DNA of 48,967 nt from a virus. The stretch is from positions 1-48,967 of IMG/VR virus record IMGVR_UViG_3300009093_000060; one strand, given 5' to 3'. The position numbers and the translations under genes were made by a program. Positions 12,557 through 36,490 of this stretch are shown piece by piece. Position 1 is the stretch's first letter. Every line of letters starts with the position of its first letter. A model generated the notes under the pieces. That model saw nothing but the letters and a program-made list of their open reading frames with translations. It ran no database searches and was not told the DNA's origin.

Positions 12557-12775
12557 TCAAGTTGAAGGAGAAGCGCTGTGACTGGGCGACACAGACGCAG
12601 AAGGGGAGGGTGAATGGGATGACGAGTGAGAGGGCGAAGTGCTACTGCTCGGACTCACAGACGATGATGGAGAAATTGACAGCGACGCACTCAAGCTCAG
12701 CGAGACACTCGTTGAGGGAGACGCACTCCCGCTTGGACTAACTGACCCCGACAACGACGCACTCGGCGAGAGTGA
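12557..12775 (-). repeat. Ser-X/Ser-Pro repeat coding DNA (C-terminal tail)
   Basis: Low-complexity DNA coding for about 73 residues in which nearly every second residue is Ser. It forms the C-terminus of the tail tip gene and ends in the shared tag SPSHSASPST. Confidence 0.8.
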
Positions 12776-14731: not shown

Positions 14732-17563
14732 TTAGCTCATACTCAAGGCGAAGCGATCATTGATGTACGCAACCATCGTGGCGCGATCCGTGGTTAGCTT
14801 AGCTGAGAAGATGTAGAACCCTGCCAAGTAGCCCTTTAGTGCGTCATTACCATGATTATGCATCAGAAGTGGATTCGAGCGTCCCGCAACAGTGTTCGTT
14901 CCGGTGGTGAACAACTGTGTCCCATCGAGCTTGTAGGTCCACTCTGAACTCGTCGAGATCACTTCAACCACCCGCCACGAGGTCAGCGCGGCATGTGTCC
15001 CAACAGTCTTTCGTGCGTTGCTCAAACTACCGTCATAGATATTATTATCACTCCACGGATAGTAGTCGGTGTTGCCTGAGTCTGTACCGAGATCCCAGAG
15101 GCCGTTATCAACTGTCCCGACCCCTTCCGTATCACACTTCACTACGATGAAGATATGCGCCGCTGTGAGTGAGGCTAAGCTCGGCCCGTCCCAGAACTGT
15201 GCAACACCTGCGTGGAATCCTTCCCCACGAGCGCAAGCCAGTCCGTTGAGAATACTTACCTTATTGATCGGCTTGAAGCTCGCAGTTGCCTGTGTCCATG
15301 CGCGCGAGTTACCCGACTGATCACTCAACTGCGGCATTGGGTCGCCGTCCGACAGTCCCGTCTCACGCGACGGCTCGCCCCACATCCACACGCTGGCAAT
15401 AGTGTTCGGATCAGCCGGAGCGGACGGGCTCACCGAGGAGCTTGGGCTTGTTGAGGGAGAGGGCGAGACTGATGCCGAAGCAGAAGATGACGGAGATCCA
15501 CTCGAACTCGGCGACACCGAGGCCGAAGCTGATGAACTCGGGCTTTGCGACGCTGACGGTGAGAGGGATGAACTCGTGCTAGACGATGCACTTGCGCTAA
15601 CTGAAGACGATGGTGACACGCTTGGACTTACAGACGAACTTACACTCGACGACGGACTGATCGACGGAGAAGTCGAAGGACTCACTGACGCACTTGGACT
15701 TATGCTCGGCGATCCAACCGCACTCACATCAATCGTCGCACAAACTTTCATTCCATTCGTCACACCGCGCGTACTGAACGTCTGCACGCAGAACTCGTAC
15801 TCACCCACCGCAAACGCAGGCCACTGGAAGATCGCCTCGTTATTCTCATCCGGCACGAGATGCATCGGCGAGAGAGTTTGTGCGCCGCCGGGTTCGGTGA
15901 CGTAGATGCGCGTGTACTGTCCCCCTGCCGTGTACTCGTCGAAGACGATCCCACCTTCGATCATTGGCTGGAACTGGTTCGTGTTAGTGAGAGTCAACGT
16001 CAACTTCAACCCGTCCGGCGGCAATTCAACACTATTCCAACTCGCGCTCGGCGGCGCGACATCCAACCCTGCGCCCGGATCTTCATGTAACGTCGGCCCC
16101 GGCTCACCAAAGGTACGCAGTCCCGTGGAGAACTGATCCTCGATCAACTCCAAGTGGAAGTCCTTCTCGTCCGGCCCGTTCGGAGTCACCTTCAATACAC
16201 GCATGACGATTGAGAAGGTTGGGGATTCCCATTGGAACAGGACGACTTCTCCTCGATAGGTGAGCCTGCCCCACGACGGGAAGACGAAACAGTCGAGGGG
16301 GGCACGCGGGAGTGAGATTGCGCGGCCATCGCGGGTGTCGATGACGTTCGCCTGCTCAAAGTCAGCCACGCCAAGAAATGTCTCACTCTGCGGCACGACT
16401 CGCCCGCCTTGAATGAGTTGATTCGCCGGGTCGATATAGAGCGCTTTCCTCCCTTTGAAGTTGTTATCCTGATCAGGGAACTCCACCTGTACCTTGTTCT
16501 TCGTGTCCTCATACGTCCCCGGAGTGAAGCGTTCAACGCGCGTAATGTTGTCGCGATTTAGGATGCGCAGTGAGCCAATCGAGTAAGTCCGACGAATCAG
16601 TCGAATCGTCAGCCCGAGCGATGGACTGGGTTCGTCCACTGCGTCGATCTGTGCGAGGATGTCCTTGACCACCGCGATCGGTGAAGTCTGATTCTCGATT
16701 CGCCCACTCCAGCCAGTTCCTTCGTCGTAGAGAGCTTGCGCAACCGATCTCCAGTTATCCAGATTGAGATATTGCAGTGGAATCTTCGCGCCGTACTCCA
16801 GCGACGTACTCCACTCGTAGATCACCTCCATCGGATTCATGTGACGACCTATGCGATTGAACCCAGTGGCGAGGTTATCCGGCTGGCGACGAATCACCAC
16901 TTTCCATAACTTCAACTTCGGCGTCACTCCTACTCCACCAGCGGCGAAGTAACCGGACTCTCTGAACCCGCTCGGACCACGTTTGACGAGACATGAGATG
17001 CCGTGCAGGGCTGGAGTGCGATTCGGCGGCGTCGTAAGTAACGACTCAAGATACGCATTCGTAGGCTCAGTGTAATTCCCACGCGTCACGTCGCACCACG
17101 CATACTCCCCACCTTCACCGGGGGGTTGATCCCCGCCCCATGCCTGCGGGTCGTCGATGAGAAATCCGCCGCCTGCGTTATCCGTGCTGACTACTGCCGC
17201 GAATACCGGACGATCGTTGATAGTAATCCGCTCGACGTGCGTATCCGGTCCCCAGCACAGCGGGAACATCTCGCCGATGTAGGAGCGGTACGCGACTGTG
17301 ATCGTATCCAGTAGCGCCGCACTCAACCCCGCCCAGAGATAGTCAGTCCAGTGTGAGTCTCTCTCAACTGCGCGTTGCAGGAAGTCCCCGAACCATGCGC
17401 GTGATGGAGTGAGTTCAATCGTTCCACCTGCGTAGGGAATTGGACGAATCTCACTCGGCGCGTTGTCCTTGATGAAATCCTCAAACTTGGTACGCTTCGG
17501 ACGTTGGCGGGTCAGTTCGCCGAGCCACATTTCACCGACGAGGAGGAGGGCTTGGAGGAACAC
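14732..17563 (-). CDS. Tail hub / tip attachment protein with Ser/Pro linker and C-terminal lectin-like domain
   Basis: A 943-residue protein. Residues 1-~500 resemble the central tail-tip protein of siphophages (J-like or GTA tip type), starting with a hydrophobic helix and containing IPYAGGTIEL and long beta-rich stretches. A fibronectin III-like segment spans about residues 520-615 (ending GMKVCATIDV). A ~100-residue Ser-X linker (15416-15717) separates this from a C-terminal concanavalin-like domain (LSDQSGNSRAWTQATASF, YLAGFYIF) of ~225 residues. It lies directly after the DUF2163-like hub gene and overlaps it by one base. It is the likely core of the adsorption apparatus. Confidence 0.75.
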   Translation of the reverse strand: MFLQALLLVGEMWLGELTRQRPKRTKFEDFIKDNAPSEIRPIPYAGGTIELTPSRAWFGDFLQRAVERDSHWTDYLWAGLSAALLDTITVAYRSYIGEMFPLCWGPDTHVERITINDRPVFAAVVSTDNAGGGFLIDDPQAWGGDQPPGEGGEYAWCDVTRGNYTEPTNAYLESLLTTPPNRTPALHGISCLVKRGPSGFRESGYFAAGGVGVTPKLKLWKVVIRRQPDNLATGFNRIGRHMNPMEVIYEWSTSLEYGAKIPLQYLNLDNWRSVAQALYDEGTGWSGRIENQTSPIAVVKDILAQIDAVDEPSPSLGLTIRLIRRTYSIGSLRILNRDNITRVERFTPGTYEDTKNKVQVEFPDQDNNFKGRKALYIDPANQLIQGGRVVPQSETFLGVADFEQANVIDTRDGRAISLPRAPLDCFVFPSWGRLTYRGEVVLFQWESPTFSIVMRVLKVTPNGPDEKDFHLELIEDQFSTGLRTFGEPGPTLHEDPGAGLDVAPPSASWNSVELPPDGLKLTLTLTNTNQFQPMIEGGIVFDEYTAGGQYTRIYVTEPGGAQTLSPMHLVPDENNEAIFQWPAFAVGEYEFCVQTFSTRGVTNGMKVCATIDVSAVGSPSISPSASVSPSTSPSISPSSSVSSSVSPSVSPSSSVSASASSSTSSSLSPSASQSPSSSASASVSPSSSGSPSSSASASVSPSPSTSPSSSVSPSAPADPNTIASVWMWGEPSRETGLSDGDPMPQLSDQSGNSRAWTQATASFKPINKVSILNGLACARGEGFHAGVAQFWDGPSLASLTAAHIFIVVKCDTEGVGTVDNGLWDLGTDSGNTDYYPWSDNNIYDGSLSNARKTVGTHAALTSWRVVEVISTSSEWTYKLDGTQLFTTGTNTVAGRSNPLLMHNHGNDALKGYLAGFYIFSAKLTTDRATMVAYINDRFALSMS
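15416..15717 (-). repeat. Ser-X/Ser-Pro repeat coding DNA (internal linker)
   Basis: About 100 residues of Ser-X repeat joining the structural part and the lectin-like end of the tail hub protein. The opposite strand is open too, as an acidic shadow frame, which is a by-product of the repeat. Confidence 0.8.
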
Positions 17564-18354
17564 TAGCTTACTCCTCTCACGGCGGGATCAACGCTGGGGG
17601 TGTATTGCCAGCCGCCCCAGTTAGCCCCGTTGTTAGTGAGGGACGAGAACTTGTTGGCCCATGTATCGTAGGTTAGATCGTCGCCGGGGTAGATCGATGC
17701 GGGGAAGCCCGTATCGAGAGTGAATCTCGGGAAGCCACCGTTGAGAGTGAGTTTGCGATCTGAGCCGACAATTTCATCCTCCAAGATCGTGCGCTTGTCG
17801 AGATTCGGCGCTTCGACAAACCCTCCCTTGTAGTAGGGTGGAATTTGCGGCGCACCCGTTACCGTGAGCACGTCGCGCAGATCGTTGAATCCGGCGACAG
17901 TGACGACATCGGCGAGGGCTGAGATGTCCGCGCCGCTGCGTTCGTCGTAGATCGAGAAGCGAGATAGGGACGAGAGCGAATCCGTCAAACTCTCGCGCTC
18001 ATAGAAGTGCCAGAGCGTCTTGAGATGTAGGACGAAGATCGACTCAGTTAATTTGAACTGGCACCGCACCACCCAGCCGAGATAGTAGGGATTCACGTCA
18101 TCACCTAGCACCTCGTAGATCGTGAGGATGATCGGGAAAGGTGGAGGGGTGAGCAGCGTCTCCGTTAACTCACTCGTCTCAATGATCGTTACGTCGATCT
18201 CGGCATCCTGTGCGTCGTCTGAGTAAGTGGGTGCGGTGTGGGTGATCTGAAGCGGCTCATACGTCTCCCCGTCGAACTCCTTACTGTGCGCAATCTTCGC
18301 ATATCGAGGAGTTGCCGACCCTGCGTTGAACTTGTAGAGGAATGTGTTGAGCAT
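17563..18354 (-). CDS. Tail hub protein of the DUF2163 / BR0599 type
   Basis: A 263-residue protein placed right between the tape measure module and the tip attachment gene, as in GTA-like and many siphophage tails. The C-terminal segment PGDDLTYDTWANKF...NWGGWQYTP matches the conserved end of this family. The Cys residues that usually coordinate an iron-sulfur cluster in the L-like version (CDK..C) are replaced here, so no cluster is expected. It would form the distal ring connecting tube and tip. Confidence 0.65.
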   Translation of the reverse strand: MLNTFLYKFNAGSATPRYAKIAHSKEFDGETYEPLQITHTAPTYSDDAQDAEIDVTIIETSELTETLLTPPPFPIILTIYEVLGDDVNPYYLGWVVRCQFKLTESIFVLHLKTLWHFYERESLTDSLSSLSRFSIYDERSGADISALADVVTVAGFNDLRDVLTVTGAPQIPPYYKGGFVEAPNLDKRTILEDEIVGSDRKLTLNGGFPRFTLDTGFPASIYPGDDLTYDTWANKFSSLTNNGANWGGWQYTPSVDPAVRGVS

Positions 18355-18355
18355 C

Positions 18356-18772
18356 TCAGATCGTCAGGATTAGAGATCCAGCCGGAAATCTCAATGGTCT
18401 ACCTACTTCAACTGTACGCGCTGGGGAGATCGGCCCACCGTGATAGAGCTTAGTGAATACACCTGATGACGTATCCACGAAGTCGAACCACACGAGTTGC
18501 CCACTCCCCGCTGAACCCGGATTGCCGAAGTCGAGGGTGACGCCAATGACGAGCTTGCCTGCGTTCAACGAAGCTGAAGTAAACAGCGTGCCATCGCGTG
18601 GAAACTGTTTGCGCGCATAGCCTGAGAAATCAGTCTCAGTTCCTCCGCCTGCGCGAGACGACGGCGCGATGAGTAGACGCATCCACAACGAGCCGGGAAT
18701 GGAAATCGCCGTCCCTCGATAGAGGAAGTTGATTACATCATCCGCGCCACTGAATCCCATCCACCCACTCAT
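18356..18772 (-). CDS. Minor tail protein
   Basis: A 138-residue protein. The segment APSSRAGGGTETDFSGYARKQ is typical of a widespread small phage tail protein (often annotated as tail fibre protein) with the GGGTExxxxGYAR pattern and a jelly-roll-like beta fold. Its start overlaps the tape measure stop. Probably part of the distal tail. Confidence 0.6.
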   Translation of the reverse strand: MSGWMGFSGADDVINFLYRGTAISIPGSLWMRLLIAPSSRAGGGTETDFSGYARKQFPRDGTLFTSASLNAGKLVIGVTLDFGNPGSAGSGQLVWFDFVDTSSGVFTKLYHGGPISPARTVEVGRPLRFPAGSLILTI

Positions 18773-21700
18773 TTCCCACCTCCGCTGATCTTGCGGATCA
18801 CATGCTGCTTTTTGTAGAGAAAGTCTACGAGCACCTGTTCTCCTTCCGGGGAGTTGATTTCATTCCGCCAGTCACGCTGGTCCACAAGGACTTGCCTCAA
18901 TCTCATCGTCGAGGGCGCACCTGCAACCGCTAACTCACCAATCCCCGCATTCGACACCTGCACGCTCGGCGCGGAGATGTCGATACGATCGGTGAATCCA
19001 CCCATTGCGAGTCCGCGAATCCGTCCACCCAGCCCGCGTGTCTCATGCAGGAATGCTTTAAGAATCTGCAACTGTCGTGCTGCATGGCGTGGGTCGGTAG
19101 TGAGTACCGCCTCCGGGAACCCGCCTTCAACAATATGGACCAATCCACCTTCCACTGCTGGAAATATGCCAGTGGCTGCGCCGATGGCTGAGCCAAGTCC
19201 GCCGATCCCCTGAGTGAATCCCTGCGCGACGCTGGAGGCTGCGACAGTCGCTGCGAACGCTGCTCCGGCTGCGACGATGGAGGCTGCGGCTGCTGTCGCG
19301 CCTGTGACGAGCGCCGTGCCTGCGCTAACCCCACCTGTCGTGAGTGCTGCTGAAGCTGCGGTTGCACCTGTTGTGAGGGTCGTAGCTGCTGCGGTAGCTT
19401 GAGCTGCACCCACGCCACCAGTTGAGCCCTTGCTGCCGATGCCGAATAGTCCTGCAATCGAGGCGAGAATTCCTCCACCTTCCGTCCCGTCACCGAACAG
19501 CGACTCAACTAACTTCTTCGACAAGTTCTCCGCAATCACCTGCTCGATTCGATTCGCGACCGAGTTGACCAGATCCAGCAACTTCTCCTTCGCGGTCTTG
19601 GTGTTATCTCGAAGTGACGTGAAGAAGTTTGTGAGACTTTCCTGTAATGCGTCAATCGAAGCCGATCTCAGTTGTCGATCAAAACTCGCCAGTTGCTCGT
19701 TTGCATCTTTAACCGTCTCCTCTGCCTGCTGTGCCTGACGTTGCAAGCTCACGTCGTTTGACTGCGCGGCGATTTGTTTGAGCAGAACCAGTTGCTGTTC
19801 GAGATCAGCCGAATACTGCCCATTGATACGGCGAATCAGCAGTAGCCCTTCAGCCTCGGCAATATCCCGCTCCCGCACTGCGCGCTCGATGTCAGCGATC
19901 TTCTGCAATCGCTCATCATTGAGTCGATCAAACTCCTTTTGCGCGAGTCGGAACTGTTCGCTGAAGGAGAGTTCACCAAGTCCGCGCACTGCGCCTTGAA
20001 TCTCTTTGAGGAAGTCCAGCAGCGCACGCGGCGGCTCGATCCCCCGCGCTTGTAACGCAGCCACAATCTGACGAATCGTCTCATGCGCAACTGTGAGTGA
20101 GTTGTTTAGCCTATTCTCACCAGCAAGACGTTGCTTGATTGCGTCTTCTTCTCTCAATCCTCGGAACTGGATTTGGAACGCGAGATCTTCCTCAAGCTGC
20201 TGCTGCTTCAACTTCGCCTGACGAACCAGTTCCTCAGCCGCAGCCAGCGCACCTAATGCATCCTTCTGCTGGATGATGAGATTGATTGCGTCGATCTGTT
20301 CCTTGTTCAGTCGCTGTTCCCGCGTGAGACGTTCAACTAGATCGACATCCCCTTGCTTCCTCGCATCCTTCAGTAGTTTCGCGATGAACTCCTGTGCCTT
20401 GCCGAGATCGATCAACTTCTCCCTGAACCTGTCCACCGTCTCCGCGTTAAACGCGTCCTCAACATGGCCTTGCAATTGCGCGAGTTCGATGTCGAGTTGT
20501 CGAACGTCGTTGACTTGTTCGTGCTGGGAGAGCGCAAGTTCCTGTCGTAGATCTACCTGCAACTGGTTCCGTTGCGCTGTGAGTTGACTCAACTTCCCTT
20601 CGGCTTTGATCGCTTCCTCGTTTGCTTTCGCAGCCTGCGCCTGTCGTCGTACTCGCTCAGCGGCGGGAATTCCTCCGACCTCGGCAGCAGCAAGCAGGCG
20701 AATCTGCAAATCTCTCGCTGCTTTGGCAACTCGGACCTGCTGGGTGATTTCTTTATCCACGCTCGCAGTAGTCAGTGCCGCTTTCGACTCAAGGAATTCC
20801 CGATAGGAGAGAAGTTGAATCCGCTGGGCCACCTCGATTGCCCGCAATCTCCGCTCATTCGTCTCCTTTTCGATTCGCACCTGTTCCTCGCCGGATGCGA
20901 GGGCGACTTCAGCGAGAGCTTTAGCCAGTTCCTGTTGAGCGTTGCGAAGAGAAGTGCCAACCTTGTCCTTCTCCCGACCAAAGGCGCGTTCAAGCGATTG
21001 TTGGACCACTTCGTCAAACGACTTGCCAGTGATCTGAGACTCGCGTTCCAGTGCTCGTTTCAGTTCAGGTTGAGCCTTGATGAACGCTCGAAAGAACTGT
21101 AACGCTTCCTGAAACGAGAGCGATGCTTCTCTCGCGGTGGCGGCATTAGCTTCAATGAGTGCCTTACGGTCCTTGGCGAACCTGTCAGCTTCTTCCCCTG
21201 CTTTCAGCGCATCGGAAACGCCCTTTCTCAGCACTTGATTAAACAGGCTGGTGGATCGGGTAGCTTCGTCAGTTAACTTGATGTAGCTCTCAAGGGTGAC
21301 CAGAGTCTGTTCAATATCGCCTTTGAACACGCCCATGTTCTTGGCGGCGGTGAGGAGTTCACGGGAACTGAGCCCAGTCTGACGTTCCAGCACGCGGAGA
21401 GTCTCAGCTTGTTCCTTCGCTGTGCCGTTGAGTTGGATCGTGTTCTCACGGAGAGCTTTCTGCGTCTCTAGCAAACTCTCTGACTCAGCCTGCAACGCTC
21501 CGAGCGCTTGCTGAACATCGCCACCTGCAATAATCCCCTGACGAGCTAATTGCTTGGAGTTCTCATCTGAAATCTTCCCCGACGCACGTAAGCTCTCAGC
21601 GAGACGATTGTTCGCCTGAATCCGCTCCGTGATCGAGTCGATCTCCTTCTCGTTCGCCGCGATGGATTGCAGAGTATTAGCAAGTTGTCCGGCGATATTG

Positions 21701-23400
21701 CCCGCCTGTTGCGTGCGCTCCTCATTACGCAAGTTGATAAGCTTCTGCAATTCCTCGCGCAGTGCTCCCAGTCGCTTCTCCTCATCTGTAACCCCCGCCA
21801 CTCGCAACTGCGCAGTTGAGTTGAGCTTGTTGTAGATTTCGAGTAACCGCTCCTGCTCATCCCCGGTGCGCTTCACGCCTACCTTGAGCCCGTCGAGGAA
21901 CTTAGTCTGATCTTTGAGTTGATCGATCTCCGCCGTGAGTGCGTCCGCCCGCTCCTTGCTGAGCGTGACCGCATCTTTCTGGAAGGCGTTATAGGTAACG
22001 TAAGCTGCGATAACCGTGCCGAGAACAGCCGCGATCCCGCCGACAATCCCGCCGAGGGCGATGGACGAGATGCCGAGCGTGCGTTGCGCGGCGGCGGCGC
22101 TTAGTGAAGCCGCTGTGAGTCCACGCAAGCTCACAATCGTCGGAAGAATGCCTGCGGCGTTGAGTTCGACAAATCCTACTAGCAGTCGTCCGATGCCGAG
22201 GGTGAGTTGACCGACGACAAATAGCACTGGTCCAGCAGCGGCGAGGAGAGCGAGCAGTCCAACTCCCACTAGCTGTACTGGACGCGGTAGTTTCGCGAAC
22301 ACGTCCGCCAGCTTTGTCACTACTGGGCCGACAATTTCAGTAAGCTGGATCAACGCAGGTAGCAGTGCCTCTCCGACAGCAGCAGCCGCACGGAAGATCT
22401 CATCCCTGAAATTCTCAAACGAGTTCTTCGCCCCAGCGGCTGCGCGCGGGAGCCGCTCCAGTTCATCGACCAGCGTGTTGAGAAATTCCTTAGACGACAG
22501 GCCCAATTCTTGTATATCAGCCGCATTCACTGTGCCAAACGCCTGTAACAACGCCCGTCCCACCGCTGGAGCAGCTTCGATGATCGGACGCAGATCCTGA
22601 CTCAGCACCTTGCCCTTTGCAGCAAGTTGGCCGAGTTGGATCGTAACGCGCGCCAGTTCGTCTCGACCTCCACCTGTGAGTGCGACCGCGTTACTGAACT
22701 CGCGGAGATCCCGTTCTGCCTCCTTTGCGCTGAATCCAACAGCCTGTAAGCGTATCGAGCCTTGAATCGCTTCCTCGAACCCGATGCCGGGGAGTTTCGC
22801 AATCACCGTGAGTCGTTGCAGTTGTCGTCCAGCCTCGTCCGCCGAACCAACGATTGCCGTCAGTCCGCGCTTGAGCGAGTCAAGTTCGACTGCTGCGTTC
22901 ACTGAGGTTATGCCCAGTGCGGTAAGCGGGGCCGTGACTGCGACAGTGAGGGTTGCGCCGATCGATGCTAGTCCCTGTCCGACGCTGCGCAGTGCGTTAC
23001 CCGTTGTCGCCACCCTGTCATTGAGCGCTTTCGTTGCCGCTTCAGCTTTCTTAAACTCCTGCACATGTGCATCCATCTGTGGGCCAAGGTTGGCACGTGC
23101 GGCGCGTTGCTGGGCAGCGGTGAGTCGATCGTGCGAGAGGGCGAGTCGTTCAGTGGATTGGCGCGCGCGTTCCTGCCGATTGGCGAGTTCCTGTGACTGG
23201 ATCGCTAGCTTCTGTTGCTGGTTAGTGAGACGTTGAGTTGCAGCAGCAGCACGATCTAACCCCGCGCTGGATTGCTGGCCCAGCTTGACCGACGCCACCG
23301 ACTCAAGCTTCTTCTTGATCTGATCCAATCCGCGCAGAGTCTCGTTCAACCCGCGCAGGATTGTTTGCAATTCGATGATTAATCGAGTCGTGTCAGCCAT
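18769..23400 (-). CDS. Tape measure protein
   Basis: A 1543-residue protein, mostly coiled coil. The N-terminal ~130 residues form a heptad coil. The TP901-type tape-measure domain follows (about residues 150-360, with GSADEAGRQLQRL, GFEEAIQGSIRLQAVGF and RVTIQLGQLAAKGKVLSQDL). Hydrophobic Ala/Gly/Val-rich segments near residues 365-470 and 1370-1430 are candidate membrane-inserting parts. At roughly 1.5 angstrom per residue, the tail would be near 230 nm. The last 45 residues (from MRLRQVLVDQRDW) are homologous to the small protein at 26732-26965. It is translationally coupled to the next gene. Confidence 0.93.
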   Translation of the reverse strand: MADTTRLIIELQTILRGLNETLRGLDQIKKKLESVASVKLGQQSSAGLDRAAAATQRLTNQQQKLAIQSQELANRQERARQSTERLALSHDRLTAAQQRAARANLGPQMDAHVQEFKKAEAATKALNDRVATTGNALRSVGQGLASIGATLTVAVTAPLTALGITSVNAAVELDSLKRGLTAIVGSADEAGRQLQRLTVIAKLPGIGFEEAIQGSIRLQAVGFSAKEAERDLREFSNAVALTGGGRDELARVTIQLGQLAAKGKVLSQDLRPIIEAAPAVGRALLQAFGTVNAADIQELGLSSKEFLNTLVDELERLPRAAAGAKNSFENFRDEIFRAAAAVGEALLPALIQLTEIVGPVVTKLADVFAKLPRPVQLVGVGLLALLAAAGPVLFVVGQLTLGIGRLLVGFVELNAAGILPTIVSLRGLTAASLSAAAAQRTLGISSIALGGIVGGIAAVLGTVIAAYVTYNAFQKDAVTLSKERADALTAEIDQLKDQTKFLDGLKVGVKRTGDEQERLLEIYNKLNSTAQLRVAGVTDEEKRLGALREELQKLINLRNEERTQQAGNIAGQLANTLQSIAANEKEIDSITERIQANNRLAESLRASGKISDENSKQLARQGIIAGGDVQQALGALQAESESLLETQKALRENTIQLNGTAKEQAETLRVLERQTGLSSRELLTAAKNMGVFKGDIEQTLVTLESYIKLTDEATRSTSLFNQVLRKGVSDALKAGEEADRFAKDRKALIEANAATAREASLSFQEALQFFRAFIKAQPELKRALERESQITGKSFDEVVQQSLERAFGREKDKVGTSLRNAQQELAKALAEVALASGEEQVRIEKETNERRLRAIEVAQRIQLLSYREFLESKAALTTASVDKEITQQVRVAKAARDLQIRLLAAAEVGGIPAAERVRRQAQAAKANEEAIKAEGKLSQLTAQRNQLQVDLRQELALSQHEQVNDVRQLDIELAQLQGHVEDAFNAETVDRFREKLIDLGKAQEFIAKLLKDARKQGDVDLVERLTREQRLNKEQIDAINLIIQQKDALGALAAAEELVRQAKLKQQQLEEDLAFQIQFRGLREEDAIKQRLAGENRLNNSLTVAHETIRQIVAALQARGIEPPRALLDFLKEIQGAVRGLGELSFSEQFRLAQKEFDRLNDERLQKIADIERAVRERDIAEAEGLLLIRRINGQYSADLEQQLVLLKQIAAQSNDVSLQRQAQQAEETVKDANEQLASFDRQLRSASIDALQESLTNFFTSLRDNTKTAKEKLLDLVNSVANRIEQVIAENLSKKLVESLFGDGTEGGGILASIAGLFGIGSKGSTGGVGAAQATAAATTLTTGATAASAALTTGGVSAGTALVTGATAAAASIVAAGAAFAATVAASSVAQGFTQGIGGLGSAIGAATGIFPAVEGGLVHIVEGGFPEAVLTTDPRHAARQLQILKAFLHETRGLGGRIRGLAMGGFTDRIDISAPSVQVSNAGIGELAVAGAPSTMRLRQVLVDQRDWRNEINSPEGEQVLVDFLYKKQHVIRKISGGGK

Positions 23401-24309: not shown

Positions 24310-24384
24310 CTACGTCGAAGGCGACGCTGAATGACTCGGGCTCGTTGACGCGCTCGGCGACGGCGACGGTGAACCTGAAGCCGA
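24310..24384 (-). repeat. Ser/Pro repeat tag coding DNA (tail tube)
   Basis: The last ~23 codons of the tail tube gene, encoding the short Ser/Pro tail with the shared tag SPSHSASPST. Confidence 0.8.
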
Positions 24385-25161
24385 TGGCACCGCCGCGCCC
24401 GGATCGAGATAGATGAAGCGTGCGAACTGGCCCTCGGGATCGGATTGCGACCGAGTCGGGTCAGCCAACGCGGAGCCGTTAAAGGTAAACTGATTGAACT
24501 CATCGCTAATCATGCTGATCGATTCTGCTGGACTCAGCCTGACCTTAAATGCGTCCACGATCATTCGCTCGAAGTCAGAGCCGGAGTTCACCGCCGTGTT
24601 CTTGCCGATCATGCGAATCCAGATCTCAGGCGCAGCGGTCTTGAACACCCCAACCTGACGACTGGCTGCGTTGGTGTAAGTTGCGGCGATCGGCCCAGTC
24701 ATGCCCGCGACATCGCTGAACTGAAACACGCCGGACGCATCCCATGAGTACTTGGTGGTGGCGATCGGTGTGCCATTGTCAGTGAGCAAAAGCCCGGTGA
24801 CACGTCCAGTTGCACCTGTCACGGCATAGAGCGTATTGAGCGACGGCGCGCCAGCGAGCACTTGTTCTGCCGTGACCGTGCCACCAGCCAGCGCCGATCC
24901 CTCGCCACGGGTCGCAAGCTCCATGTTGGATTCGAGGAAGTAATCGACTATTAGCGTAACGCTGGAATTCAACTCCGCGTCAATGCGCGCATCTATAGCA
25001 CGTAGACCGGAATAGCTTTCCTTATGCGTTAGCTCCTCTACTGCGAGCCCGAACTCAAAGGACGGGGCATTGCCAAACCATTTCATTGGTGCGATAGGAT
25101 CGCCGTTGGCGTCTCGATTAGCCCAAAACACTGGGCCTTGACCACTCCACAATCCGGGCAT
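24310..25161 (-). CDS. Major tail (tube) protein with Ser/Pro C-terminal tag
   Basis: ATG 25161 is chosen for its GGAGGT ribosome site. A longer frame to 25233 has none. The 283-residue product sits at the tube position, directly upstream of the chaperones. Its beta-rich core has segments GLRAIDARIDAELNSSVTL and FERMIVDAFKVRLSPAE that fit a tail-tube fold. The final ~23 residues (from SGSPSPSPSAS) are the Ser/Pro repeat ending in SPSHSASPST. If this is the tube protein, every ring of the tail would display the tag many times, so the tail surface would be coated. Confidence 0.75.
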   Translation of the reverse strand: MPGLWSGQGPVFWANRDANGDPIAPMKWFGNAPSFEFGLAVEELTHKESYSGLRAIDARIDAELNSSVTLIVDYFLESNMELATRGEGSALAGGTVTAEQVLAGAPSLNTLYAVTGATGRVTGLLLTDNGTPIATTKYSWDASGVFQFSDVAGMTGPIAATYTNAASRQVGVFKTAAPEIWIRMIGKNTAVNSGSDFERMIVDAFKVRLSPAESISMISDEFNQFTFNGSALADPTRSQSDPEGQFARFIYLDPGAAVPSASGSPSPSPSASTSPSHSASPST

Positions 25162-25165
25162 GGGT

Positions 25166-25723
25166 TTACCTCCAGTTAGGTGCGTAGTGCATAAAGTTGC
25201 GATTGACTGCAATCTGCCGCGCGCTTTGAGCACAGGCGTTTTCGTATTCCTCGACGCAGTCGGCGATCTTCTCAGCTAACATGCGATGCTTATGGTAGAG
25301 ATGGTCCACCATGCCTGCGAGATGTTCCACCTTTGGGCATTCGGTTGTGATGCCGCCAACGTTCTCGATGCGCATGTAGTCATCGTAAGTCTTCAGTTCG
25401 TCTTCCTTACCGAAGCGTTTAATCAACCTGCCGCCCACCTTAGCGATGTTCTGACGGAAGCCGGGACAGCGCAATGGCATTTGAAAATACGGAGCGAAGT
25501 ACTGAAGCTGAATTGCGTTAAAAGCATCCATTGAGCGAATAAAGGCAACGCTATTCGGGTTGGACCAGTTAAAGTTAGCCACTGCTGGCTGAACTGCTTC
25601 AACCGCCGCGCCCCACACATCCGAACATAGACCACGCCCTTTGACATAAGAGAAGCGCTCCCCGAGTACGCCCACTCGTGGCCTAAGTTTGCAGCCTTCG
25701 CGAATCGCTTCTGATAGCTTCAT
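25166..25723 (-). CDS. Conserved phage protein of unknown function
   Basis: ATG 25723 is preferred because it overlaps the upstream stop, with a GAGG upstream. The longer frame runs through the neighbouring gene. The 185-residue product starts MKLSEAIREGCKLRP, a motif typical of a widespread small phage protein in neck-tail regions, and contains several Cys and His residues (CPGFRQN, TTECPKVEHL, HLYHKHR) that might bind metal. The role is not known. Confidence 0.6.
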   Translation of the reverse strand: MKLSEAIREGCKLRPRVGVLGERFSYVKGRGLCSDVWGAAVEAVQPAVANFNWSNPNSVAFIRSMDAFNAIQLQYFAPYFQMPLRCPGFRQNIAKVGGRLIKRFGKEDELKTYDDYMRIENVGGITTECPKVEHLAGMVDHLYHKHRMLAEKIADCVEEYENACAQSARQIAVNRNFMHYAPNWR

Positions 25724-26283
25724 CCAAGTGCCTCGATTAGTCTCACTGTTAGTAATCCAAATCCCACATGCACCCCTGTCGTTCCAAAGTTGTCCGGGTC
25801 CATTGCTGGCATTTGTAGTTCGTCGTGTCCTTCCACCCACTCACCTGCGCCGGGAATTGCGAACCCGAGTTTCTGATTAGCGTTCAACGTCGCGCGAATG
25901 AGTTCGACGTTTGTTGAGAACGTGTTCTCACTGGAATCGCCGAACTGGTAGAAGTAGGTCAGGCGAAACTGGCGACTGATGATGTTCTTTCCGCGTGGTT
26001 GCGTAATCAGTCGAGTTGAGTCCTCCTTCGCGGGGACCTTCGCCTGCCCGAGTGATGCCTCACTAATCATCAGGCAATTCACGCGCTGAACCGTCCCACC
26101 ACCGGAGAGAGTTGCGATGTCCAGAGGCGATCTCAGTATCGCTACCTCCGTTCCCTCTTCCGATTTGAACGCCAGTGCTAAGTAGTCAAAGATCTTTACT
26201 TTCTTCGTGTTGCTCGTACCGATAACCGGGCTCAGGAGCATCTTGAGCTGCGTCTTGATCTGATTTGCGGTTGGTGCTGGCAC
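25720..26283 (-). CDS. Probable tail terminator or tail completion protein
   Basis: A 187-residue alpha/beta protein located between the HK97 gp10-like gene and the tail tube, the normal place for the tail terminator. No diagnostic motif is visible (central SRQFRLTYFYQFGDSSENTF, C-terminal GVHVGFGLLTVRLIEAL). The assignment is mainly by gene order. Confidence 0.5.
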   Translation of the reverse strand: MPAPTANQIKTQLKMLLSPVIGTSNTKKVKIFDYLALAFKSEEGTEVAILRSPLDIATLSGGGTVQRVNCLMISEASLGQAKVPAKEDSTRLITQPRGKNIISRQFRLTYFYQFGDSSENTFSTNVELIRATLNANQKLGFAIPGAGEWVEGHDELQMPAMDPDNFGTTGVHVGFGLLTVRLIEALG

Positions 26284-26284
26284 A

Positions 26285-26728
26285 TCAGTTCGTCGTAAAG
26301 TTTCGGATTAACTCACTAGCCTTCGCCGCTACCTTCGGCCTCGCCTGTGTCACTGCAATGCGACTGAATCGCCGCGCTCGCATTCCCTTTGAGTCACCGT
26401 AGACGTAGCCCGCTGGGGCTGGCCCACCTGTACGTGCTCCTTCTCGTCCTGTGCCGTACTCGCCAAAGAATGGATAGGGAGCGCCACGCTTGCTCACCGC
26501 TGTCGGGAAGAGGCGATAGATACGCGTCTGTCCTTCGGTGACGAATTCTTCCTGCAAAGATCGAAGCGTGACACCCTTGTCAAACCAGCGGAGACGGATG
26601 CTGGACTCTTCTTCCTGTCGGAGGATCTTTGCACCCCGTGCGACAACCTCATCTCGCAGCGACTCCACACGCGACTGGAAGTTGTGAAAGATCGGGCCGA
26701 GTTGGACTGTTACCAATTCGTCTGCCAC
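26285..26728 (-). CDS. Tail completion / neck protein, HK97 gp10-like
   Basis: A 147-residue protein. An N-terminal helix (FHNFQSRVESLRDEVVARGA) leads to a C-terminal part with the YPFFGEYGTG pattern and a basic ARRF...A motif seen in the HK97 gp10 family of neck proteins that join head and tail. Position between connector and tail genes agrees. Confidence 0.65.
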   Translation of the reverse strand: MADELVTVQLGPIFHNFQSRVESLRDEVVARGAKILRQEEESSIRLRWFDKGVTLRSLQEEFVTEGQTRIYRLFPTAVSKRGAPYPFFGEYGTGREGARTGGPAPAGYVYGDSKGMRARRFSRIAVTQARPKVAAKASELIRNFTTN

Positions 26729-26731
26729 GTC

Positions 26732-26965
26732 TTAGTTTCTCACTATCCTTTTGAGAAGTGCGGTGTTGCGTCGCAAGCAGTCAATGAAAATCTGTTCACC
26801 CCTTTGAGGGCTGATCCAATCAGAAGATTGGCGATAGTCAACGATTACCTGACGTAATCTCATTGGTCTGGGTGCAGGCTGAACATTCTTGACGCTGACA
26901 GTCTTTGCTGCCACCGCTCCCGCAGTTAGCCCAACAAGCCCACCAATAAATCCACGTCGATTCAT
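26732..26965 (-). CDS. Small Tat-signal protein homologous to tape measure C-terminus
   Basis: A 77-residue protein. Residues 1-21 form a twin-arginine-like signal (MNRRGFIGGLVGLTAGAVAA). Residues 35-77 (starting MRLRQVIVDYRQ) align with the last 45 residues of the tape measure (MRLRQVLVDQRD). The shared pattern is MRLRQV-[IL]-VD...SP..GEQ...D.L...[IR]. It begins in an ATGA overlap with the preceding gene. It appears to be a duplicated tape-measure end fused to an export or membrane signal. Function is unknown, but a role at the tail end or membrane is suggested. Confidence 0.7.
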   Translation of the reverse strand: MNRRGFIGGLVGLTAGAVAAKTVSVKNVQPAPRPMRLRQVIVDYRQSSDWISPQRGEQIFIDCLRRNTALLKRIVRN

Positions 26966-27324
26966 ATCCTCACTCCCGCATGGACCACTTTGAACTCGTA
27001 AACTGGCACTGCGCCGACGAATGAATCCTTGCCGTGGAAGGTGTAGATGTCATCTCCAATCTGCACCGCTGTCATCGCTCTCAACTTGCTCAACCTGCAA
27101 CCCTCCACGTCATCAATGATCAATCGCTTGTAACGCTTCCCCGCGCTCACATCTAAATACTCGCGCTTGTCGAGATACCAATGGGAGTCGTAAGCTGCGA
27201 TTGGCGTCCCCCAGTTGTTCTGATCTCCGCTGAGGAGCTTCAAGCACTGCTCCTGCACGAAGATCGGTCTGAGCCTGTCGTGCGCTCGGCCTATCGCTCT
27301 CGCTATGCGTGTGCTGCGATTCAT
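26962..27324 (-). CDS. Head-tail connector / head closure protein
   Basis: A 120-residue beta-rich protein at the place of the head closure (gp16/gpFII-like) protein, between the adaptor and the neck protein. A basic N-terminal helix (RSTRIARAIGRAHDRL) is followed by strands. There is no specific motif, so the call is positional. Confidence 0.5.
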   Translation of the reverse strand: MNRSTRIARAIGRAHDRLRPIFVQEQCLKLLSGDQNNWGTPIAAYDSHWYLDKREYLDVSAGKRYKRLIIDDVEGCRLSKLRAMTAVQIGDDIYTFHGKDSFVGAVPVYEFKVVHAGVRI

Positions 27325-27327
27325 TCA

Positions 27328-27663
27328 TCACCATACCCAGAGAACGGGGACTGAAGTCGAACCAAACAGTCCTGTCAAACTCGCGTCTCTCACCTCGGGC
27401 AGTCCAAGGAGGAGTCGCAACCTGCGTCGAATATCCTCCAGCGCATCCTGATCCTTCTCGTTCACGCCTTCCCTGCCACCGTTCACTAGCTCCATAACAC
27501 TGCCCGGAGCGTATTCGTTCCAAGCTGAGACGAGATCCAGCGCCCGACTCCACTGCGCGTCGTTCAAATTGTCAATGAGCGTAGAAACAAACTCGAAACT
27601 CGCCTCGCCTGCGACCTCGCGCACGAAGTCAATATCCTCATCTGTCGGCGTTGGTAGCGGCAT
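27328..27663 (-). CDS. Head-tail adaptor protein
   Basis: A 111-residue protein, helical and acidic (TDEDIDFVREVAGEASFEF, LEDIRRRLRLLLGLP). The all-helical fold, size and position after the capsid gene are those of gp6/gp15-type adaptors that dock on the portal. Positional call with moderate support. Confidence 0.55.
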   Translation of the reverse strand: MPLPTPTDEDIDFVREVAGEASFEFVSTLIDNLNDAQWSRALDLVSAWNEYAPGSVMELVNGGREGVNEKDQDALEDIRRRLRLLLGLPEVRDASLTGLFGSTSVPVLWVW

Positions 27664-27669
27664 CTCTCA

Positions 27670-27815
27670 TTAAGTTGACGGACTGGCTGAATGACTTGGA
27701 CTGACTGAAGCGCTCGGGGAAACACTGGTGCTCGGAGAAGCCGAGCGAGACGCCGATGAACTTGGACTGCCTGACGAGCTGGGCGAAACCGAACTGCTCG
27801 GTGATGCGCTCTGAC
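27670..27815 (-). repeat. Ser-X/Ser-Pro repeat coding DNA
   Basis: About 48 codons of repeat at the 3' end of the minor virion protein gene, ending in the shared tag and TAA. Confidence 0.8.
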
Positions 27816-28077
27816 TTACTGTGGTCAACGTCGCAGATTGCCACAATCCGTCTGCGTCAACCACGAAGAATCCCCCCGCAGGATTCATCGCAATCGATCC
27901 TTTGCCATAGGCTGACAGTTTCCCGTTTTGGATGTTGCTATCCAGTACGAGATCCGTAGTCGTCCCAATGACGATGTACTTGCCAGTTGAATCCTGACCG
28001 AGTGCGAACGCGCCAAACGTCCTTCCACTGTTCGAGTAGGTACGAGAGAGACGATTGTTGATCTTCTTGAAATTCAC
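27670..28077 (-). CDS. Minor virion protein with Ser/Pro C-terminal tail
   Basis: A 135-residue protein. A folded N-terminal ~85 residues contain a short beta-rich module (GRTFGAFALGQDSTGKYIV, FFVVDADGLWQS). The last ~50 residues are Ser-X repeat ending SPSHSASPST. Because it is in the head operon next to the capsid genes, it is a probable capsid decoration or fibre protein. The folded part matches no family I know. Confidence 0.6.
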   Translation of the reverse strand: MNFKKINNRLSRTYSNSGRTFGAFALGQDSTGKYIVIGTTTDLVLDSNIQNGKLSAYGKGSIAMNPAGGFFVVDADGLWQSATLTTVSQSASPSSSVSPSSSGSPSSSASRSASPSTSVSPSASVSPSHSASPST

Positions 28078-28112
28078 CGTAGCCTCCTTTGACGGGTCAA
28101 TGCCCTACTCAG

Positions 28113-28331
28113 CTACTTCTCTACCGCTGTAAACTTGCCCTTCGTCGATTTCCAGTCACCGGTGATGTCGCCGCGAGACTTCATCGCGTCCAGTTCCCTT
28201 TGCGTGAACGCAGCGGCAAGTTCGTCCTCCATACCATCGGAGAGAGTTTTGGACTGCGGTAACTTCTTGCCTTCCGCTGCTGGAACCATGACGCGAATGC
28301 CATGAATGATTTTGCGATTGTCCTTAGCCAT
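28113..28331 (-). CDS. Small head-region protein
   Basis: A 72-residue basic protein (GIRVMVPAAEGKKLPQSKT, then a helix DELAAAFTQRELDAMKSRG). It follows the major capsid gene and could be a cement or connector component. Not recognised. Confidence 0.55.
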   Translation of the reverse strand: MAKDNRKIIHGIRVMVPAAEGKKLPQSKTLSDGMEDELAAAFTQRELDAMKSRGDITGDWKSTKGKFTAVEK

Positions 28332-28342
28332 CGATTCGACTC

Positions 28343-29392
28343 CTAAGTTACCAGCGTGTTCTCAACGCGCAGTTTCTGCTCATTCGGGATCGTGAATGGA
28401 TTAACCTGTACCTCAACGGTGAGATCCCGGCCCATCACTGACTCCTCGTAGTACACGGTCTGGCCCCTCGTATCGATACCGGGATTACCGGACGCGCGCG
28501 CGATTTCCATTGCTCTCACGACTGGCGCAAACACTGTGCGTCCAACTTGACCACCTGATGGCACTGCGGCGATGTAGCCAGCAGGCCATACGTTGGTCGG
28601 CGTGGTCGTGATGCCGCCATCAACGAACACGTCTACGGTATCGTCGAACAGGAAGAAGTTGAACGGAATGCCAAGTTCTTCTGTGACGGCCTCAGCCAGT
28701 CGTCCGCGTGGAATAATCGTACCGAGAGTGGTATTGGGAGCGTCGGCATGGATCGCGCGATGCAGCGCCGTGCGCAACACTACTCCCTGCACCGGACCGA
28801 TCTTGTCCTGTGCGTCTTCAAGGAAGGAAATAAGGAGATCCCATGCATTGACCGAGTTGTCGTCCCATGCCGTGCCTGCGGTGGTTAGGCGATCGGATGC
28901 GAAGTCGTAGCTGACCGTGTGGGTCGTACCTGTTTGGGGGTTCTTGGCAACATTGGTACCAGTGGCCCATGCGGTAAAGGCGTCAACCTCAATTCGTCGA
29001 TCATTCGCCTGTACGATCTGCGCCACTTTACCGGGGATAGAGCGACCGAGGATCTGGTTGATTACCTCGGAGTTTGCGTTTGCACGCTCGCTGAGTTTCT
29101 GGATCTCGTACTCATCCCACTTGTAGTAGCCCTCAACCGGGATCATCGACAATTCGCGCAAGGGCGGGGTGATGTCAGGAATGAGACGGCCTCTGGAGTT
29201 CCACTCGCGTCTATCCGACACGGGCCGGAAGTCGATAGTGGTAACTTCCTTCAGGTCGATGGAATCCACGTCCTGACGCGGGAAGAAGATCGGCCAGCGC
29301 AGCCGTCCGGTGTTATTACGGGAGATCGTTTGCGCAACTACGGTTAGAGACGCAGGCGATAACTCCTCAACCAGTGGAATAAGTGATCTCAT
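28343..29392 (-). CDS. Major capsid protein, lambda gpE-like HK97 fold
   Basis: A 349-residue protein. The E-loop/spine pattern (LRWPIFFPRQDVDSIDLKEV, GYYKWDEYEIQKLSERAN), an A-domain with IPFNFFLFDDTVDVFVDGG, and the C-terminal YEESVMGRDLTVEVQVNPF match the E-type capsid family rather than HK97 gp5. Neighbours are the decoration protein upstream and the scaffold before it, the usual order. There is no fused protease. Confidence 0.85.
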   Translation of the reverse strand: MRSLIPLVEELSPASLTVVAQTISRNNTGRLRWPIFFPRQDVDSIDLKEVTTIDFRPVSDRREWNSRGRLIPDITPPLRELSMIPVEGYYKWDEYEIQKLSERANANSEVINQILGRSIPGKVAQIVQANDRRIEVDAFTAWATGTNVAKNPQTGTTHTVSYDFASDRLTTAGTAWDDNSVNAWDLLISFLEDAQDKIGPVQGVVLRTALHRAIHADAPNTTLGTIIPRGRLAEAVTEELGIPFNFFLFDDTVDVFVDGGITTTPTNVWPAGYIAAVPSGGQVGRTVFAPVVRAMEIARASGNPGIDTRGQTVYYEESVMGRDLTVEVQVNPFTIPNEQKLRVENTLVT

Positions 29393-33561: not shown

Positions 33562-33810
33562 TCAATTAACTCGGTTTTCCACGTCCTCAAGTATGTCCGC
33601 GACGTACCATAAAAGCTGACCTAGCTCTTTGGAGGTTACTATCCCACCCTGAAGGACCATAACGATAGTACCGGCGATTTCTTTGGTGGGAGGCGGACTA
33701 AAGATAACTCTTCCCTGCGTCTTCTCTAACACCTGCGCCACCCCTGTCAATACTTCGTAGTCCCCGTCTTCACTAATCGCCGCTGAAATCAACGAGTCAC
33801 TTACCGCCAT
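33562..33810 (-). CDS. Hypothetical protein
   Basis: An 82-residue protein starting inside the 3' end of the glycosyltransferase gene (14-base overlap, with AAAGGAGAT within the upstream frame as ribosome site). Two helices flank a Pro-rich turn (VIFSPPPTKEI). No known function, but the overlap links its expression to the enzyme. Confidence 0.55.
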   Translation of the reverse strand: MAVSDSLISAAISEDGDYEVLTGVAQVLEKTQGRVIFSPPPTKEIAGTIVMVLQGGIVTSKELGQLLWYVADILEDVENRVN

Positions 33811-35596
33811 TTGCCATCTCCTTTAGAAATTCTTGCACTCGCCCGTAGATTAACGGCCAACCCGCAATCTGTCCATCAAATTCCTCCCAGCCAATCGCGT
33901 TCTTCTTGTTTCTGAAGCTCTCGACTGAGAAATGCGGCACTGTCAGCGTCTGCCCGTGTCCGGTGATGTCGATGTTGGGAAACTCCGACTGCCAGTTGGC
34001 GATCTTCTCGTCGCCGAACTTCCCGCGCGTACCCGGTTCGTAGGCCATGCGCTTCACGTCGAACACGCCGTCATTCGCCTCAATCAACTCGACCCGACGC
34101 TTGTAGTGAGCAAGGAGGAGGAGTCGATTCGCGCAGATGCCAGAGACTTGCTGGAGATTCGCCGTACGAACTGCGTGGCCGTCGGAGTAACGGACCCTCC
34201 AGACGTTGGTGTTATAGAAAATTGTCTGATCGTCAGGTGGAACGAACTCGAAGTGCGACGGATGATACAGGACATCCGACTCACACAGGAACACGTAGTC
34301 AGCCGTCGATCGCTCCAGTCCAGCGAGAATCTGGTAGTGCATCGTCCCGCCGGACTTCTCTCGATCCAGCACCAGCGTCCAGTCGCCGAAGTCGGTACGT
34401 TGCAGGGAGACGCAGCCGAGCTCGTGGCCGTTGGTGGCTGATTTGAGGTTGTTGCGCGCAGCGAGTTCCAGTGTCTGATCATGCGAGCCGCACGTGTAAT
34501 AAAGCGCCAGACCGCGTTGCTTGCGTTGAATTGCAGGAGCGTAAGGGATGGACTTTCCTTGACGACGATAGAACTCGTCTCCTGCTTGCTTCACCTGTTG
34601 ATAGACCGGGTTGTCGTCACTCCAGTCCGGCACGGGCGTATACTTCTCTATAAGCCAACTAAGAGGATGCATCTGCTTGGGCCATAGGTTCTTCAGCCAT
34701 AGCTCTCTGCCACGCGCCTTAGCTCGTTCCTTTCTGCCCCCGTCAGCATACGGAAACCCAATACCTCCCACTCTAAAGAAATGCGCAAACCATGTCCCTT
34801 GATTTACCTTCAACTCCCCGCCCGACAGCCAAGTCTTGCAGGCGATCTCCGTTCCCATATCGCCCCACGAGCCAAAAGAAGTATCACACGGCTCAATCTC
34901 AAAATATCTATCTCGTCTCATAGCCCAACAAGCACCGAGAAGGCTCATGGTGTCATGGATCTGGCCTTGCGTTTCAGGTCGAAACGGAACGTCATGCTTC
35001 TTGCAGTAGTTCTCATCTGACGTGTAAGCACCCCAGTAGGCAAAGTCGAGGTTGGTATCAAACCTCCACGAGTGCGTATAGGCCCGTCGCCTTCCTTCCT
35101 GTCCGTCGCGCGGCTTCCAGATCTTCACTTGTTTGAGATAGCGCGAGTTACATTTCTCGCAGCGTGCGGGTTTCGGAGACTGATCCTTCGTCCAGTCGCA
35201 GCGCTTGCACTTCCACTCGAATACTTGCAAATTGAACTGACCGGGGACCACTGTCCAATGCGGCTCAAAAGTGGCGAGGAGTTTCTCGTCGAAGTTGGCG
35301 TCCAATGCGCAATGTGCGTCTAACTTGCAGACGAATTCCCCGCGCGCAACTCTCGCTGCTTCATTCGTCGCCGCACGTTGACCAATGGATTTACGATGCT
35401 GAATGACGGTGAGCCGGGGATCGATCGGGAGGGGCTGGTTGGGCCATTGGTTGTCATACCCGTCCAAAACTACGACGCATTCAGTCTTCTTGGACGTGTT
35501 CGCGAGGACGTTGACAACTGTTTCGTGGAGAAGATCGATGTCGTAGTAGAATTCATTGCGAGCGGGGATAAGAACCGACAAGTGGTAGCGTGTCAT
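33797..35596 (-). CDS. Two-domain glycosyltransferase, GT-A fold, polypeptide GalNAc-transferase-like
   Basis: A 599-residue protein. Residues 1-~280 form a GT-A domain: SVLIPARNE at the N-terminus, then LDAHC at 92-96 in the metal-site position. A zinc ribbon with Cys 130, 133, 146 and 149 is inserted in the domain. WGDMGTE at 244-250 and HFFR at 272-275 lie where GT27 enzymes have W-G-x-E-N-x-E and H-x-F-R. A motif WPKQ..P..WLIE (from 305) is shared with the GT-methyltransferase protein. Residues ~360-599 are a second GT-like domain with SDVLYHP (440-446) as a possible metal site. No signal peptide is seen, so it acts in the host cytoplasm on sugar-nucleotide substrates. The proposed acceptors are the Ser repeats of virion proteins in the same operon. 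Sugar and acceptor are inferred, not shown. Confidence 0.75.
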   Translation of the reverse strand: MTRYHLSVLIPARNEFYYDIDLLHETVVNVLANTSKKTECVVVLDGYDNQWPNQPLPIDPRLTVIQHRKSIGQRAATNEAARVARGEFVCKLDAHCALDANFDEKLLATFEPHWTVVPGQFNLQVFEWKCKRCDWTKDQSPKPARCEKCNSRYLKQVKIWKPRDGQEGRRRAYTHSWRFDTNLDFAYWGAYTSDENYCKKHDVPFRPETQGQIHDTMSLLGACWAMRRDRYFEIEPCDTSFGSWGDMGTEIACKTWLSGGELKVNQGTWFAHFFRVGGIGFPYADGGRKERAKARGRELWLKNLWPKQMHPLSWLIEKYTPVPDWSDDNPVYQQVKQAGDEFYRRQGKSIPYAPAIQRKQRGLALYYTCGSHDQTLELAARNNLKSATNGHELGCVSLQRTDFGDWTLVLDREKSGGTMHYQILAGLERSTADYVFLCESDVLYHPSHFEFVPPDDQTIFYNTNVWRVRYSDGHAVRTANLQQVSGICANRLLLLAHYKRRVELIEANDGVFDVKRMAYEPGTRGKFGDEKIANWQSEFPNIDITGHGQTLTVPHFSVESFRNKKNAIGWEEFDGQIAGWPLIYGRVQEFLKEMANGGK

Positions 35597-36290: not shown

Positions 36291-36490
36291 TTGCGCTCCT
36301 TATTGGCTACGTCAATTTCAACTCCCCAATACCTGCAAAGATTTTTCAGAATCCTTTCTGCGCGTCTTTCAGGGTTGACGATAGCCAAGTCGTTAATCAT
36401 TGCCTCTAGGTACACTTTGCGGCACTCGTCCATATTCTCAGGAGTCCAGCGATGGTTTGGGTTAGGTTCGATTGGGTCTGACGACATCAT
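36287..36490 (-). CDS. Hypothetical small protein
   Basis: ATG at 36490 (or the adjacent ATG 36487) overlaps the GT-methyltransferase stop and begins MMSSDPIEPNPNHRW. The 67-residue product is helical with several Arg and Cys. Longer frames starting in the enzyme gene are unlikely. No family. Confidence 0.5.
   Translation of the reverse strand: MMSSDPIEPNPNHRWTPENMDECRKVYLEAMINDLAIVNPERRAERILKNLCRYWGVEIDVANKERK

Follow-up and report, generated by a model that had tools for sequence, protein, structure and literature searches.

A phage neck-region protein that may be an exported mimic of the tape measure C-terminus

Phage-encoded proteins whose effects involve the tape measure protein (TMP) have been described in several systems. 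Ltp of phage TP-J34 is an exclusion lipoprotein for which the C-terminal end of the TMP has been proposed as the site of action (PMC3952083), and changes in the TMP overcome it (PMC10883804). HK97 gp15, a moron product for superinfection exclusion, imposes a block that hybrids escape when they carry HK022 genes for the tail tube and the TMP (PMC10883804), and Pseudomonas phage JBD26 encodes Tab, whose effect hinges on the C-terminal portion of the TMP (PMC10884400). In Sf11, T5, lambda, 80alpha, Chi and Bxb1, this end of the TMP lies embedded in the tail tip (PMC12724387), and in T1 it forms a trimeric coiled coil within the tip lumen (PMC11945409). With a TP901-1 TMP that lacks its last 30 residues, both plaques and tails are abolished (PMC5099701).

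The stretch of viral DNA analyzed here (the “window”) comprises 48,967 nucleotides, positions 1 to 48,967 of IMG/VR record IMGVR_UViG_3300009093_000060. It encodes a protein of 77 amino acids, designated P0001 (positions 26732..26965, minus strand), in which a Tat-like leader precedes a C-terminal segment resembling the end of a TMP. Judged by its description, Ltp is like the protein proposed below in being a small exported phage protein that acts at the TMP C-terminal end (PMC3952083); Ltp is a lipoprotein and TMP binder with repeat domains, whereas P0001 resembles the TMP end itself. HK97 gp15, also likened by description, is unlike P0001 in being a predicted inner membrane protein for which the cited account reports no TMP mimicry (PMC10883804). 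Tab differs in acting inside the cell, where it blocks the assembly of tails, and in being opposed by a dedicated counter-protein; the cited account describes no leader (PMC10884400). In phage Chi, residues 1391-1431 of the 1431-amino-acid tape measure (8vjh chain Q) are matched by a TMP-end profile that includes P0001 (E=2e-6); there the segment ends a long tape measure, whereas in P0001 a leader precedes it and its 43 residues stand apart as a module of their own. Our literature search found no description of a stand-alone exported TMP-end mimic, which should not be taken as proof of absence.

The P0001 open reading frame starts with an ATG that overlaps the stop codon of the upstream gene (ATGA), lies downstream of a purine-rich GGGAG/GAGG stretch, and ends a few bases before the start of the next gene; the surrounding open frame allows at most 105 amino acids. 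The slot that it occupies is bounded upstream by a gene kept in relatives (26962..27324, minus strand) and downstream by a gene for a tail completion or Neck1 protein (26285..26728, minus strand; phrog_5, 0.0013). A scan for sigma-70-type promoters gave no promoter-like site in 26000-28400, and the two terminator-like sites in this interval were both on the plus strand and at shuffle level. Because no promoter or terminator of its own was found, P0001 is probably made late, together with the virion genes. No PADLOC family was matched. Structure prediction for the protein was poor (mean pLDDT 56.7), with a low-confidence helix at residues 4-23 of the leader and helices at residues 53-66 and 68-76 (block pLDDT 66-77).

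A preliminary description of this locus had stated that residues 35-77 of P0001 can be aligned to the final 45 residues of this phage's TMP, and that a TMP-end segment had been joined to a twin-arginine-like leader in a gene among the neck genes; both statements are borne out. The TMP has 1543 amino acids (18769..23400, minus strand; Pfam TMP_3 PF20155, 3.1e-19; NCBIfam TIGR02675, 1.1e-9), and its last 45 residues are encoded by 18772..18906. Aligned to the full TMP by the Smith-Waterman method, P0001 residues 35-77 (the “core”; 26735..26863, minus strand) scored 79, far above 2,000 shuffles (mean 29.6, maximum 50; Gumbel p ~6e-8), and the whole protein scored 103 (maximum of 3,000 shuffles 57; p ~7e-10), so that the likeness is not at random level. 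When P0001 was compared with 64 translated open reading frames of the window, the next best score after the TMP was 34. A profile built from 12 TMP ends without P0001 recovers it with E=4e-8 (search space set to 1,000 sequences). P0001 is thus homologous to TMP ends, and with 77 amino acids it is not itself a long tape measure protein. Leader residues 1-34 showed no convincing likeness to the TMP in a shuffle test (p ~0.03-0.04), a value that leaves derivation of the leader from the TMP unsupported.

In a six-frame search of the collected loci, all matches with E<=1 were TMP C-termini, apart from P0001 and one 36-residue frame (E 0.95). Three TMP-end searches of cultured phages matched 178 records at 179 places (one record having two), 61 records at 61 places and 150 records at 150 places, as counted by place whatever the length of the open reading frame. 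Scans of prokaryote genomes with type A and type B ends (defined below) returned no stand-alone TMP-end copies. PHROG families 4460 and 4383 were weakly matched by a type B end. Family 4460 was rejected, a search of 7 records having found TMP ends only, in 2 of them; an Ackermannviridae protein of 53 amino acids, matched by a type B query, was judged by eye to be a chance match.

Three kinds of TMP end occur among the relatives fetched: type A (the window, G002, G004, G006, G007, G017 and G018), type B (G003, G005, G008, G013, G019 and G022 to G025) and a third group, group 2 (G014, G015 and G016). Three minus-strand genes beyond the TMP follow the TMP-end type among relatives, encoding a 138-amino-acid tail-tip-region protein (18356..18772; Pfam Gp80), a 263-amino-acid tail assembly protein (17563..18354; phrog_778, 7.7e-21) and a 943-amino-acid tail protein (14732..17563; phrog_1101, 1.3e-56). 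From their position after the TMP and their PHROG tail families, the latter two are probably tail-tip hubs 1 and 2, respectively. Identity over the last 46 TMP residues tracks identity of the 263-amino-acid protein (Spearman 0.79, Mantel p 0.0005, 2,000 permutations) and does not track identity over the part of the TMP lying 100-260 residues ahead of its end (Spearman -0.04, p 0.72). Both correlations used 15 records; of the 19 available (18 and the window), G024 and G025 were omitted because their figures resemble those of G019, and G015 and G016 because their loci end within the tip gene. Identity of the 263-amino-acid protein is 0.56-0.95 within type A, 0.65-0.80 within type B and 0.30-0.40 between A and B, and the corresponding mean values for the stretch 100-260 residues before the TMP end are 0.55, 0.54 and 0.53. 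The TMP-end type and the tail-tip proteins form one block, the border of which lies inside the TMP gene.

Other features of the structural region were noted in passing. Three of its proteins (12557-14731, 24310-25233 and 27670-28077, minus strand) share a nearly identical Ser-Pro-rich tail, and a protein of 1421 amino acids at 38880-43145 consists of 48% Ser plus Pro. Since two proteins with family-2 glycosyltransferase domains lie nearby on the same strand (33797-35596 and 36487-38478), glycosylated virion tails are a possibility.

The preliminary description had further held that the TMP end of this very phage was copied. That part has to be given up, because the core is closer to the TMP ends of other phages. 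The TMP end of G006 is letter-identical to that of the window and has 15 of 37 residues in common with the P0001 core; the ends of G004 and G007 have 19 and 18 of 37, respectively. The P0001 core scores higher with the ends of G002, G004, G007 and G017 than with its own, and a recent duplication of the phage's own TMP end was rejected on these grounds. Compared with six type A ends, the core keeps 15-19 of 37 residues, 7-13 of the codons concerned being synonymously changed, and nucleotide identity is 0.48-0.56. Such values suggest either an old gene under constraint or capture from an unsampled TMP.

The slot was defined as the interval between homologs of 26962-27324 and 26285-26728, and counting the window, 15 records allowed it to be read. 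It was unreadable in L091 and L092; L064 was omitted because its contig starts near the downstream gene, and G009, G011 and G012 because the neck homologs were not found there. Eleven of the 15 slots are empty (G002 to G008, G015, G019, G020 and G021), and the combination of an RR leader with a TMP-like end occurs in the window and in G016 only. The same pair, sought in related phages, is therefore present in one further lineage and absent from 12 of the 14 other readable slots (the 11 empty ones and that of G010, which holds an unrelated open reading frame). The remaining slot, in G014 (L066 9681-10004), holds a 107-amino-acid RR-leader protein with a different C-terminal part and no recognized TMP-like end; against the open reading frames of L066 and the window proteins it gave no convincing match (best score 48, without a shuffle test). 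When 27 records were searched with a profile of P0001 and the G016 protein, full-length matches were confined to the window and G016, the other 10 being TMP ends in open frames of 415-1689 amino acids. A second insertion point lies between homologs of 26285-26728 and 25720-26283, where L005, L006, L007 and L012 have short open reading frames unrelated to P0001. The P0001 gene is like a moron in being an extra gene between structural genes that most readable slots lack, and unlike one in that its own promoter and terminator were not found; it is best explained as a small optional cassette of the structural operon.

The G016 protein has 78 amino acids (L052 10357-10593, stop included) and lies in the same slot, its GTG start overlapping the preceding stop and its stop overlapping the next start. 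G020, a near neighbor of G016 (downstream, 96.0% across 1126 bases and 97.8% across 1687 bases; immediately upstream, 71.7% across 269 bases), is without the slot gene. Compared as whole proteins, P0001 and the G016 protein score 81 (shuffle maximum 52, p ~7e-8), which is driven by the leaders, where 13 of the first 21 residues are identical; the C-terminal parts are barely alike (score 27, p 0.045). Scores of the P0001 core are 77-109 with seven type A ends, 53-62 with three group 2 ends and 18-26 with six type B ends. For the G016 core they are 59-72 with the three group 2 ends (z 10-14), 22-43 with type A and 21-26 with type B (21-43 over the other 13 ends), and the TMPs of G014 and G015 are preferred to its own (72 and 69 versus 58). 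Taken alone, the G016 core has p ~1e-4 against its own TMP and 6e-6 and 1e-5 against those of G014 and G015. Because both cores score higher with TMPs of other members of their group than with their own, the cargo, as judged from these alignments, is group-matched and not self-matched in both proteins.

It is very unlikely, in our estimate, that the resemblance of the G016 protein is partly due to chance, the window gene then having arisen as a single event in which a common leader was fused to a captured TMP end. The weakness of the G016 core alone (domain E 0.018 in the TMP-end profile, with a set search space, and the core-to-core p value above) and the presence of RR leaders on other small phage proteins (G014, G001) would agree with such an origin. 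It is opposed by the shared slot, the similar leader and length, the C-terminal placement and the z values against group 2 ends. A further, independent argument against it is that the G016 protein weakly matched phages of Stenotrophomonas and Xanthomonas (E 0.03-0.04), in all 3 matched records at the TMP end. Passive insertion of a short gene with no or marginal function, into a slot that tolerates small genes, is a further reading to which we give a low probability. The slot and the next one do hold unrelated short open reading frames in other relatives, and GC3 of the P0001 gene is low (0.44, versus a mean of 0.58 and sd of 0.07 for minus-strand genes of <200 codons); against this, residues of the core are kept despite synonymous codon differences from all six type A ends, and the same design recurs in a second lineage with group-matched cargo.

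In Tat substrates an RR pair precedes a moderately hydrophobic stretch and an AxA site, and the P0001 leader, as read from the translation, fits this pattern. Its first 20 residues (26906..26965, minus strand) fall below the curated cut-offs, narrowly for NCBIfam TIGR01409 (16.1 versus 16.7 bits) and further for Pfam PF10518 (12.1 versus 22.7 bits); the G016 protein reaches 13.1 bits against the same TIGR01409 cut-off. We refer to the P0001 leader as Tat-like and to export by the Tat route as putative. Other Tat-like or RR leaders were seen elsewhere. In the window, the protein at 9882-10496 (minus strand) has an internal Met start with the sequence MNRRQFTFRGLLTLAVAGLTGSAFKC, Tat-like by eye and with no NCBIfam match. 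In G001, a phage whose neck genes are unrelated to those of the window, two adjacent small RR-leader open reading frames (L001 10001-10542) lie slightly upstream of terminase-like genes.

The main rival to an exported protein is a role in assembly inside the cell, which we consider unlikely. An unexported product would sit, while tails are assembled, at the place in the tip that belongs to the TMP end, holding that place or controlling stoichiometry, or it would become a minor tip component. The stop-start overlap with virion genes, the lack of a detected promoter, the docking of the TMP C-terminus in the tip (PMC11945409, PMC12724387, PMC5099701) and a cargo matched to the group whose tip proteins the phage shares would all suit such a factor. 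They have to be set against the Tat-like character of both leaders, in which 13 of 21 residues were kept while the cargo diverged, and against the empty slots in 11 of 15 readable records.

We tentatively favor, as a reading with a reasonable chance of being right though short of probable, that P0001 is exported and mimics the tip-docking end of the TMP in the version matched to the tip type, its most likely effect being to hinder the entry of related phages. The RR leader would send the protein through the Tat route, after which the C-terminal 43 residues would face the periplasm or sit there free. These residues would imitate the TMP end that is docked in the virion tail tip in solved relatives, the type imitated being the one found together with the tip proteins of the group to which the phage belongs. 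At a late stage of infection, the mimic would meet incoming virions of the same tip type in the envelope and interfere with them: it would join or cap their TMP end, a trimer, or else fill the pocket for that end in the opened tip. Release or docking of their TMP would be spoiled, and related phages would then inject poorly. A leader would further prevent the mimic from staying in the cytoplasm and competing there with the phage's own tail assembly, and late expression would suit protection of a cell that is already making virions. The below-cut-off Tat scores of both proteins count against this reading, as do the occurrence of the design in just 2 of 15 readable slots, the weakness of the G016 core taken alone, the slight likeness between the two cores and the lack of a PADLOC family match.

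The preliminary description had offered two roles for the protein. Anchoring of the tail end in the host membrane finds no support, and the idea of an exclusion or decoy protein acting on incoming phages fits, as far as the sequences go. Because the TMP-end type follows the tail-tip genes, the expected partner would be either the tail tip of an incoming virion or the TMP trimer located in it. This linkage also weighs against a decoy for the host, in which the exported mimic would occupy an inner-membrane or periplasmic host factor needed by the TMP end at DNA entry. Host inner-membrane proteins do associate with the TMP during entry (PMC13190303), and an exported form would reach them; in the same paper, on SNIPE, escape and ManYZ-related changes map elsewhere in the TMP (residues 100-150 and about 304), and we regard a host-factor decoy as rather improbable.

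The probable late production of P0001 together with virion genes also counts against an exported exclusion protein, as it is unusual for exclusion by a prophage. No Phage_integrase match was found in 13 records, some of them fragments, so that lysogeny is not indicated. The major capsid protein of the window had no match in 50,697 phage records.

A more general form of the proposal, which we hold possible but doubtful, is that phages carry swappable exported TMP-end mimics that fit the tail-tip type of the group concerned, and that these shut out incoming phages because they imitate a virion part and not because they bind it. To our knowledge, little is understood of the way in which the end of the tape measure gets out of the tail tip, or of its contacts in the envelope. 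If P0001 is a natural exported copy of the TMP end in minimal form, it would be a ready-made probe for this step, and from the linkage between TMP ends and tail-tip genes one can predict, by a simple rule, the phages on which a mimic of this kind should act. If the proposal is true, mimicry joins the known ways by which phages shut out competitors.
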